In this document: one piece after another, positions 19,567 through 32,649 of the stretch
Layout of the letters: each line of letters starts with the position of its first letter
Position numbering within the stretch: position 1 is the stretch's first letter
Source of the DNA: Stappia indica
Lineage (GTDB): Bacteria; Pseudomonadota; Alphaproteobacteria; Rhizobiales; Stappiaceae
NCBI RefSeq assembly: GCF_009789575.1
Contig: NZ_CP046908.1
Location: 3,253,001-3,317,000 of the forward strand
Length of the DNA: 64,000 bases
Direction: 5' to 3'
Notes under the pieces: model-generated
Databases searched by the model: none
Told to the model about the DNA's origin: nothing
What the model saw: the letters and a program-made list of their open reading frames with translations, nothing else
Program-made: the position numbers and the translations under genes

Positions 19567-19727
19567 AAGCTTAACGGCGCGACCGCCGGATGTTGAGGCC
19601 TATTCGGTGCGCCTTGCAGGATTTCCCCGCCGCCGCTGGCCAGAGCGCGCATTCCTGCGCCCTCGCACTGCCGCGATTGCGTCACGATACGCAGGCCGTA
19701 CCGGATCGAGACCTTGAGGGGAAAGGG

Positions 19728-19831
19728 TGGGAGGCTGGCACGGTGACCCGTGCCGCGACTCGTTGGGGCTGCTTCCTTCCGGACCTGACCCGGTTGGCGA
19801 GTGGCTCGTCCACCACCAACCTCCCGCGCCC
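19728..19831 (-). ncRNA. ffs: Signal recognition particle RNA (4.5S type)
   Basis: The minus strand holds the universally conserved SRP RNA core, GGTCAGGTCCGGAAGGAAGCAGCC-like, with its GGAA tetraloop, at about 19770-19793. Flanking stems are present: 5' GGGAGGTTGGTGGTGG pairs broadly with the 3' end, where CCAGCCTCCC closes the helix. Size (about 100 nt) fits the small bacterial form without an Alu domain. It is directly upstream of dnaX, its usual place. The RNA binds Ffh and targets membrane proteins to the Sec translocon. Ends are estimated from helix closure. Confidence 0.92.
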
Positions 19832-29504: not shown

Positions 29505-29658
29505 GGGCGGCGGTCCGGTTTGTTGAGCTTTGGCAAGAGGTGACCGGATGCGGCCGGAGGGTCAAGCGGGAAGCGCCGAACGGTTGATCCAGCGCAAGGA
29601 GGCGAAGTTCGTATCCCGCTAGTTTCGCCCCACTGAAATCAGCATGGGATCTCGCATC

Positions 29659-30000
29659 ATGGCCGTGAGCGACTGGAGTGCCTTTCTCGAACAGACGGAT
29701 CGCCGGATGGGCGACCTGCGCAGCGGAATGCCGGGCGTTGCAAAGGGGTTCCACGAGATCGCGAAAGCGGCGATCGGACCGGGAGCGCTCGATTCCAAGA
29801 CCAAGGAACTGATCGCGCTTGCGATCGGCATTGCAGCACGCTGCGACGGGTGTCTTGCCTATCACGCCAAGGCGGCCGCGAAATATGGCGCGACCCGCGA
29901 GGAAGTGATCGAGGCGATCGGCGTTGCCGTCTATATGGGCGGCGGGCCCTCGATGATCTACGGAGCCGAGGCGCTGGCGGCATTCGACGCCCTTGCGTGA
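29659..30000 (+). CDS. Carboxymuconolactone decarboxylase / AhpD-like protein
   Basis: A 113-aa protein of the AhpD/CMD fold. It has the redox motif CDGCLAYHAKAA, with the CxxC and downstream His of AhpD-type proteins, and the preceding helix LDSKTKELIALAIGIAAR. Such proteins often act as thiol-dependent peroxide or disulfide reductants. I prefer the ATG at 29659; an in-frame ATG at 29644 adds five residues, and neither has a strong Shine-Dalgarno. A second protein of the same superfamily is encoded at 32248-32649. Confidence 0.85.
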   Translation: MAVSDWSAFLEQTDRRMGDLRSGMPGVAKGFHEIAKAAIGPGALDSKTKELIALAIGIAARCDGCLAYHAKAAAKYGATREEVIEAIGVAVYMGGGPSMIYGAEALAAFDALA

Positions 30001-30681: not shown

Positions 30682-30710
30682 GCTGAGGCCGGCTGTATGC
30701 CGGTCTCAGC
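30682..30710. terminator. Hairpin between convergent genes
   Basis: A 12-bp stem (GCTGAGGCCGGC with GCCGGTCTCAGC, one G-U pair) with a tgtat loop. It follows the phosphatase-like gene and overlaps the stop codon of the GNAT gene. No T-run is present on either side, so intrinsic termination is uncertain. Confidence 0.45.
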
Positions 30711-31278
30711 CTCCCAGCGGCCTGCGCGGGCCGTCCGTCAACGCGCCGATCAATCCGAACATGTCTGCAAGCCCTTCGCGCACGAGACTGAAGGCGGAAA
30801 AGCTGCGCGGCTCGATCCGGCCGACGATGTCGCCCATTTCGAAGGTCAGGTCTGCGGTGAACTTGCGGGCGAGTTGCTGCATGGCCCGGTTGGTCGCCAG
30901 GCAGTTCATGTAGATGTGCTTGCAGCCGCGGTTGCGCGCGGCGATCAGCGTCAGCTCCATCAGCCGCGTGCCGATGCCGGCCTGCTGGCAGTTCTGCTCG
31001 ACGGAGAAGGCAGCCTCGGCATTGACGCCATCGTCGAACGGACGCAGTTCCGCGACCGCGCGCAAGAGGCCCTCGGCGAAGTAGCCGTGGATGACCGTGC
31101 CCAGGGTGAAGCTGGTATCGGCATAGCACCGCAGGAAGGCGTCGCTCGCCGGCATGGCGAAGCGGGCCCGGCGGGCGGTCGGATCGAGACGGAGGAGATG
31201 ATCGCGAAACTGCGCGATATCGTTATAGGTCAGCTTTCTGTAATAGCCGGCTGCCGGCTTCTCGGTTTGAGACGACAT
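30706..31278 (-). CDS. GNAT-family N-acetyltransferase
   Basis: A 190-aa acetyltransferase of the GNAT fold. The acetyl-CoA pyrophosphate-binding motif (R/Q-x-x-G-x-G/A) is visible as QQAGIGTRLMELTLIAARNRG at about residues 98-118. The N-terminal part (LTYNDIAQFRDHLLRLDPTARRARF) resembles GNATs fused to protein acetyltransferases and those found as stand-alone stress genes. The acceptor is unknown. It diverges from the lipoprotein gene across a 346-bp region rich in palindromes. Confidence 0.82.
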   Translation of the reverse strand: MSSQTEKPAAGYYRKLTYNDIAQFRDHLLRLDPTARRARFAMPASDAFLRCYADTSFTLGTVIHGYFAEGLLRAVAELRPFDDGVNAEAAFSVEQNCQQAGIGTRLMELTLIAARNRGCKHIYMNCLATNRAMQQLARKFTADLTFEMGDIVGRIEPRSFSAFSLVREGLADMFGLIGALTDGPRRPLGG

Positions 31279-31624
31279 GCGATGCTCCTGATGAGGACAG
31301 CACCGCTCCTCGGGTCTCCCCAGACCTTGTGATTTTTATAGAGAGGGTTCGAGGCGAATTCGTGACCGCCGCGATCATGGCCGATCACGCTGGTCGGGCC
31401 ATGATTTGGACCAATTGCCCGCCCATTGAAGGCGCGTCAACCATTTGGTCACCAAAACCGACAAGAATCGGGCGGGCCTGCGATAGTCGGTTGCGTCGAG
31501 GGATCGTCGCGCCGCGACAGGAGTTGTGATGTCCAGGCAGGGCGCGGATGCGCGACCCGCCTGTCGCATCGCGCAGCTGAGAACCGACCGTCCAAAGCAT
31601 AGAACGAGCAAGGACAGACACATC
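31279..31624. other. 346-bp divergent intergenic region, palindrome-dense
   Basis: It lies between the starts of the GNAT (-) and Omp19-like (+) genes. At least five dyads occur in 145 bases: ATCATGGCC/GGCCATGAT (31374-31382, 31397-31405), TTGGACCAA (31406-31414), GCCCGCCC/GGGCGGGC (31417-31424, 31470-31477), TTTGGTCACCAAA (31444-31456) and GTCGCGCCGCGAC (31506-31518). No convincing open reading frame or T-tract is present. It could hold operators for one or both genes or a small structured RNA. Confidence 0.5.
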
Positions 31625-32197
31625 ATGACCCGTTCCTCCCGGTATGGCGCGCCTCTGATCGTTGCGCTCAGTCTGACCGTGGCACTCGCTGGCTGTCAGC
31701 GCCTGGGATACGGAAGCCGGAGCGCTCCGCTTCCGGCCACCCCGACCGCACCCGTCGCGAGCCAGTCCCTCGAGCCGCTGCAGCCGATGTCGCCGACGCT
31801 CGGCCCGGACGGCCAGCCGATTCAGGGCGCTCCGCTCGATGGAACGCAGACCAACGTCGCTGCAGTAGACCCGTCCGCCGGCACCGCCCCGAGCGGCCCG
31901 CCCGCCGGTGCGCGCGAGATCGGCCGCAGCGACATGCTCGGCGGCTGGTCCATTGCGTCGGGCGCCGACAACTGCAAGCTCTTCATGACGCTGACCACGT
32001 GGAGCGGCGGCTATCGCGCCAACTCCCGCGGCTGTGCCTCGCCGCAGATGCAGACCATCTCGGCCTGGGACCTGCAGGGCAAGCAGGTGCTGCTGAAGGA
32101 TGCCAGCGGCGCGACCGTCGCCGAACTCTATGCGACCGGCGCCGAGAACTTCGCGGGCCGTACGACCGCCGGTGCGCCGATCCAGGTCTATCGGTAA
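31625..32197 (+). CDS. Outer-membrane lipoprotein with AprI/Inh protease-inhibitor domain, Omp19-like
   Basis: A 190-aa lipoprotein. The signal peptide ends in a lipobox LAGC, with Cys at about residue 25. A Pro/Ser/Thr-rich linker (about 35-95) leads to an AprI/Inh-type beta-barrel domain (REIGRSDMLGGWSIASGADNCKLFMTL, ending in QVYR). In Brucella the Omp19 protein of this family inhibits proteases and protects the bacterium in the gut; here a similar role is inferred. I use the ATG at 31625, directly before the signal peptide; an upstream frame to 31526 looks non-coding. The gene stands alone. Confidence 0.88.
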   Translation: MTRSSRYGAPLIVALSLTVALAGCQRLGYGSRSAPLPATPTAPVASQSLEPLQPMSPTLGPDGQPIQGAPLDGTQTNVAAVDPSAGTAPSGPPAGAREIGRSDMLGGWSIASGADNCKLFMTLTTWSGGYRANSRGCASPQMQTISAWDLQGKQVLLKDASGATVAELYATGAENFAGRTTAGAPIQVYR

Positions 32198-32247: not shown

Positions 32248-32649
32248 ATGTCGGTGTGGCCGATCCTGGAAGACAGTGAACTTTCTCCCCGCGCTGCCGC
32301 GGTGATCGCGGATATCCGCGCCACCCGGAACACGGACTTCATCAACAATTTCTGGCGTGTCCTGGCCAATGATCCGGCGCTGCTGGAGCGGACCTGGGCC
32401 AGCCTGAAGGACGTGATGGCGCCGGGCGCTCTCGATCCGCTCGTCAAGGAAATGCTCTACGTGGCGGTCTCGATCGCCAATGGCTGCGAATACTGCATCC
32501 GCTCGCATACGACCGCAGCCCGTGCCAAGGGCATAAGCGAGGCGCAACTCGGCGAACTGCTGGCGGTCGTCGGCATGGCCAGCGAGACCAACCGTCTGGC
32601 GACCGGCCTGCAGGTGCCGGTGGACGACGCCTTCCTCCCCAAAAAGTAG
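32248..32649 (+). CDS. Carboxymuconolactone decarboxylase / AhpD-family protein (second)
   Basis: A 133-aa protein with AhpD-type motif CEYCIRSHTTAARAKG, where the two Cys and the His match the redox site, preceded by LDPLVKEMLYVAVSIAN. It is longer at its N-terminus than the gene at 29659, with LSPRAAAVIADIRATRNTDFINNFWRVLANDPALL, a layout seen in alkylhydroperoxidase-related proteins. A peroxide-related or thiol role is inferred. Its ATG at 32248 has an AGGCG/GGGGGG-rich region upstream. No operon partner is evident. Confidence 0.82.
   Translation: MSVWPILEDSELSPRAAAVIADIRATRNTDFINNFWRVLANDPALLERTWASLKDVMAPGALDPLVKEMLYVAVSIANGCEYCIRSHTTAARAKGISEAQLGELLAVVGMASETNRLATGLQVPVDDAFLPKK

Follow-up and report, generated by a model that had tools for sequence, protein, structure and literature searches.

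The region considered here is the gap between two divergently oriented genes of Stappia indica, located in a 64,000-nt stretch of DNA (the window) that sits within a single 5.1-Mb contig. A GNAT acetyltransferase gene bounds the gap on the left and an Inh/Omp19-type lipoprotein gene on the right, an assignment that had been proposed in a preliminary description of the sequence and that is borne out by matches to PF00583 and PF02974 (Table 1). The GNAT gene is detected in all 14 genomes of the same genus and, at E up to 1e-30, in 33 of 87 genomes of the family, and the GNAT/lipoprotein pair is divergent at each of the 30 family loci examined (30 of the 33 with a GNAT match, G277, G244, and G264 being left out). 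Across the order, a GNAT match is found in 65 of 199 genomes, 58 of them outside the family. Genes of the carboxymuconolactone decarboxylase family (PF02627) flank the pair on both sides (29644–30000 and 32248–32649), and a match to the low-molecular-weight phosphotyrosine phosphatase family (PF01451; 30212–30679, E 6.1e-06) adjoins the GNAT gene. The sole Rfam match in the window at gathering score is a gene for the bacterial small SRP RNA (19727–19824, minus strand). No paper on the GNAT/lipoprotein intergenic region was found in the open-licence literature.

The preliminary description had placed five perfect dyads within this gap, and all five are present at those positions and perfect. 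A sixth perfect dyad, GGTCTCCCCAGACC, lies outside the coordinates and the list given there. The density of dyads was compared with that of 2000 dinucleotide shuffles, where tight palindromes with 6-bp or longer arms number at least two in 0.85% of cases (their mean being 0.15 per shuffled region), stems of 8 bp or longer number at least two in 1.35%, and tight dyads with 4-bp or longer arms number at least three in 27%. All three conditions hold jointly in 0.1% of the shuffles and in 3 of 2555 overlapping tiles of the window, some possibly overlapping the region itself. Since the classes of dyad were picked after the dyads had been seen, these figures overstate how unusual the region is.

Table 1. 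Features of the GNAT/lipoprotein intergenic region and its flanks (window coordinates).
Feature	Position	Strand	Remarks
GNAT acetyltransferase gene	30706..31278	-	PF00583, E 4.5e-09
GGTCTCCCCAGACC (GGTCTGGGGAGACC on the minus strand); hairpin or operator	31313..31326	-	exact in 14/14
Possible -10 box of GNAT promoter, TATAAA	31335..31340	-	by eye
9-bp stem with 14-nt loop, ATCATGGCC/GGCCATGAT	31374-31382 / 31397-31405		perfect in window
Second conserved dyad, TTGGACCAA	31406..31414		perfect in window; arms invariant in six genomes
8-bp GC stem, GCCCGCCC/GGGCGGGC, enclosing main palindrome	31417-31424 / 31470-31477		perfect in window
Conserved block surrounding main palindrome	31434..31469		34/36 positions invariant in six genomes
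Main palindrome (candidate operator), TTTGGTCACCAAA, 13 bp	31444..31456		perfect in window; 6/6 pairs unvarying in six genomes
Possible -35 box of lipoprotein promoter, CCGACA	31458..31463	+	by eye; weak match
Possible -10 box of lipoprotein promoter, GATAGT	31482..31487	+	by eye
GTCGCGCCGCGAC dyad	31506..31518		perfect in window
Inh/Omp19-type lipoprotein gene	31625..32197	+	PF02974, E 6.3e-20

Conservation within the genus was read from an alignment of the six genomes, out of 14, that give the longest DNA matches, the other eight being covered by a separate alignment. In addition to the block that surrounds the main palindrome TTTGGTCACCAAA, positions 31401–31419 are nearly invariant (18 of 19), against 20 invariant positions of 74 in 31327–31400 and 17 of 131 in 31470–31600. 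Comparison of 31401–31416 and 31434–31469 with the rest of 31327–31600 yields a Fisher p of 2.9e-23, for blocks that were picked after viewing the alignment and sites that are non-independent. Across the genus, GGTNACC is found at the intergenic site in 14 of 14 genomes and TGGTNACCA in 13, and both persist while most of the remaining gap aligns poorly. The perfect arm of the palindrome measures 6 bp in eight genomes and is shorter in the others (4 bp in four, and 5 and 3 bp in one each), and TCAAC (GTTGA on the other strand) is retained in all 14. The closest other genus, judged by GNAT identity and not by a tree, is g2 (three genomes). The left arm of the palindrome is lost there; two of the genomes retain TCAAC with the right half (TTTCAGTCACCA), which the third has in more degenerate form. 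Since the left arm is lost in g2 and the right half stays in two of its genomes, the symmetry itself may not be under selection. The second conserved dyad, TTGGACCAA, is present as TTGG-N1or2-CCAA in seven of the 14 same-genus genomes and absent from the other seven; where present, its center changes (A, AC, TC) while the TTGG/CCAA arms stay, and it lies 40–41.5 bp from the main palindrome, center to center.

The main palindrome is also a single-copy element. Its exact 13-bp form, TTTGGTNACCAAA, occurs once, in this gap, in eight of the 14 same-genus genomes, with no copy anywhere outside the gap in any of the 14, and TTGGTNACCAA has one occurrence in the S. indica genome. Allowing up to two mismatches reveals four other places in that genome, against six matches for a reversed control. 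Throughout the order, TCAACNNTTTGGTNACC is found in 14 of 397 genomes, at the locus in four same-genus genomes and elsewhere in ten, against eight reversed-control matches, and the copies elsewhere are treated as chance because each of the ten is centered in a mechanical open frame that spans 100 codons or more, in a few cases close to the edge of the frame. No regulon with further targets is hence visible by exact or near-exact matching of the palindrome, although degenerate copies are possible, and a multi-gene regulon finds no support.

A consensus scan of the region yielded no consensus promoter, and the candidate boxes of Table 1 were placed by eye. On the lipoprotein side, the CCGACA candidate stands 18 nt before GATAGT, which occupies the site of a TAGACT-like box in other genomes of the genus. 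The TAGACT-like box is seen 48–52 nt past the palindrome center in seven same-genus genomes and a related box 34 nt past it in four genomes of the window's group, and no lipoprotein -10-like box could be placed in G008, G011, or G004 (all by eye). The palindrome center would consequently sit approximately 60 bp before the presumed lipoprotein start in six of the seven genomes with the TAGACT-like box, and approximately 45 bp before it in the four genomes of the window's group; a location some 45–60 bp upstream of the start is one where activators often sit. On the GNAT side, the -10 candidate is not clear in all same-genus genomes, and ATATAT or TATAAT is similarly spaced, by eye, from the leader motif in several other genera.

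The arrangement of these elements suggests that the gap is probably a divergent promoter region in which one main candidate operator, assisted by a helper dyad in half of the genus, is recognized by a dimeric regulator. In this model, a shared control region would serve both divergent genes, with TTTGGTCACCAAA and its flanks most likely constituting the binding site of the dimeric transcription regulator and TTGGACCAA, 40 bp off (about four helical turns) on roughly the same face of the helix, providing a second, presumably weaker, site. With the main site immediately before the presumed promoter of the lipoprotein gene, activation of that gene would be favored over its repression, and the GNAT promoter, about 100 bp leftward, may also be controlled. 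The locus does present the conserved short dyad that is generally expected of an operator, in a region whose promoters are predicted. Several observations nonetheless count against an operator. No regulator is found among the six neighboring proteins scanned for domains, and a single-copy palindrome is unusual for a regulator with several targets, or for one that also controls its own distant gene. Furthermore, the distance from the palindrome to the -10 candidate varies by subgroup (34 versus 48–52 nt), and the perfect arm spans only 3–5 bp in six of the 14 genomes.

The conserved block could instead represent an extended promoter or upstream element of the lipoprotein gene, perhaps including a TTGAC box of the GNAT promoter on the opposite strand, with a palindrome that is partly accidental. 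On the one hand, such an element would be consistent with the retention of TCAAC throughout the genus, with the single copy of the palindrome, with the loss of symmetry in g2, where the right half largely stays, and with a conservation that continues through GGATCGNCATGGGCAG towards the -10-like box in seven genomes. On the other hand, no -10 suitably spaced from TTGAC could be seen by eye, tight palindromes with arms this long are rare in shuffled sequence, the palindrome centers the most conserved block, and TGGTNACCA is retained almost genus-wide, and an extended promoter is here considered rather unlikely. A nucleoid protein such as IHF, bending the DNA between both promoters, is a very unlikely occupant of the block. 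The core TCAANNNNTTR, the consensus that would denote an IHF site, can be read by eye in 13 of the 14 same-genus genomes (not in G009), and the full WATCAANNNNTTR in G002 and G013, but the window's copy, CGTCAACCATTTG, misses two positions of that consensus, the three g2 loci lack TTR, and the conserved right arm, its right flank, and the second dyad would be left unexplained.

The three remaining dyads of the preliminary description are not conserved. In the six genomes, 75.9% of cells are paired in the 9-bp stem and 77.1% in the 8-bp GC stem, which is not conserved as a stem, and none of the 17 pairs of these two long stems has changed on both sides, so that pairing is lost without compensation. 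The GTCGCGCCGCGAC dyad retains pairing in 83.3% of cells and has three pairs with one both-side change each, and no pair varies in TTGGACCAA, TTTGGTCACCAAA, or the outlying GGTCTCCCCAGACC. When the six dyads are taken jointly, 86.8% of cells are paired, a value matched by 38 of 500 shuffles, and three pairs have changed on both sides, against 0–4 in slid controls. The joint covariation score (0.102) lies above those of the slid versions (0.023–0.093), but is matched by 58 of 500 shuffles. Pair counts and covariation thus indicate conservation of sequence for two of the five dyads and support structure for none. The conservation of stems in relatives, which the preliminary description had named among its checks, extends to TTGGACCAA and TTTGGTCACCAAA and not to the other three dyads, and pairs changed on both sides are no more numerous than in the slid controls. 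The multi-operator control region suggested there is retained in reduced form, with two dyads whose arms are invariant in the six genomes, one of them recurring genus-wide, whereas the other three are not kept and are probably chance features of GC-rich DNA. The accompanying remark that no ordinary promoter needs so much structure loses its force, given that relatives have not maintained three of the five dyads.

A structured RNA made from the region, whether a small RNA or a leader, had been the other proposal and could be invoked from the packing of five dyads in 145 nt, from predicted minimum-energy folds, in which the 9-bp stem forms on either strand and the 8-bp stem on the minus strand, and from the covariation score relative to slid versions, but it was set aside as extremely unlikely given the uncompensated breakage of the long stems, the frequency with which shuffles reach that score, the ordinary folding of the region (z-scores of -0.56 and -1.13 for the two strands, and of -0.13 and -0.01 where two relatives were folded over stretches that overlap it), and the lack of any Rfam match in the region, either at gathering score or at E up to 5. 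As judged from the alignments, the pattern of conservation is that of footprinted DNA sites and not that of RNA covariation. A repeat family of the REP/ERIC type was also discarded, the only match to the region in its own genome at E up to 0.001 being itself, and a coding function for an 83-codon minus-strand frame is unlikely because many alignment gaps have lengths not divisible by three. In GC-rich DNA, clustered perfect dyads are a poor guide when used alone, since two of the five proved conserved and the best-conserved palindrome of the gap went unlisted.

That palindrome, GGTCTCCCCAGACC, occurs once per genome in all 14 same-genus genomes and would sit at the start predicted for the GNAT mRNA, just downstream of the -10 candidate. 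The GNAT leader folds somewhat better than its shuffles (z-score of -1.97, with 10 of 200 shuffles equally good), which is suggestive only. At the equivalent place in other genera of the family, short hairpins are possible in which differing arms surround a GGRG loop, and an anchored shuffle test of the leader hairpin yields a combined p of 0.003 over 11 representatives, hand-chosen from the 30 family loci. Two of the 11 fall individually below p 0.05, both g2 representatives are devoid of the hairpin, and the result is taken as a lead only because the test treats related representatives as independent. One of two terminator-like sites returned by a terminator scan lies over GGTCTCCCCAGACC, with a T run that is retained, by eye, in only four of the 14 genomes. 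Control of the GNAT leader by CsrA is unlikely, since no CsrA was found in the genome.

The equivalent gene in other bacteria of the order suggests a different regulatory past. PhaR sites take the form TGCRNYGCASMA in one report (PMC6201568) and share the core YGCRNYGCR in another (PMC12542648). Among the best-scoring 23 of the 58 GNAT matches outside the family (L026–L048), 17 loci have the PhaR-site core TGCN3GCA ahead of the GNAT gene, a frequency that compares with 7.5% for mononucleotide shuffles and suggests that the acetyltransferase may be part of the carbon-storage regulon in other families of the order. YGCRNYGCR is found in the three g2 gaps and in one of 13 family gaps outside the Stappia genus and g2. 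Within the genus, four of 14 gaps contain it, close to the 15% of shuffles, at positions that disagree across the genus; the fifth dyad contains one such match, CGCGCCGCG, which is not conserved. PhaR itself is encoded in the S. indica genome, yet the gap has no conserved box, and PhaR control was rejected for this genus. It thus seems that PhaR control of the GNAT gene has been lost in much of the family and not in the window's genus alone. The new palindrome may have replaced a PhaR box, but loss of the box is not tied to the palindrome because the box is missing in 12 of the 13 other family gaps. A more specific scenario, in which a single-target 13-bp operator, present once per genome and retained in one genus, governs an old gene pair, the ancestral PhaR box has been lost in most of the family, and the GNAT mRNA begins with a conserved hairpin bearing a ribosome-binding-like GGRG in its loop, is quite unlikely as a whole. 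If true, it would provide a small, bounded case of regulatory turnover, in which one divergent gene pair carries a PhaR-type box ahead of the GNAT gene in many relatives but a single-copy palindrome of another kind in the window's genus.

Known regulatory systems offer partial parallels for the proposed divergent promoter region and its pair of dyads. In the operators of the FadR subfamily of GntR regulators, TKGT/ACMA boxes have GT and AC typically 3 or 2 nt apart, and GntR-family regulators are also described as having double sites (PMC4494728). The TGGT-C-ACCA at 31446–31454, in a divergent intergenic region, matches the TKGT/ACMA boxes in that description, whereas its GT and AC lie 1 nt apart in all 14 same-genus genomes, outside that typical spacing, and no GntR regulator is found among the six neighboring proteins scanned. 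PhaR (AniA) boxes resemble the window's arrangement in being short dyads near the equivalent GNAT gene in other families and in g2, but the conserved dyads of the window do not fit TGCRNYGCASMA or YGCRNYGCR. Lastly, the palindrome differs from the sites of divergent promoters with paired operators in having no second place in the genome, and the disposition of a main and a helper dyad about four helical turns apart is like that of such promoters.
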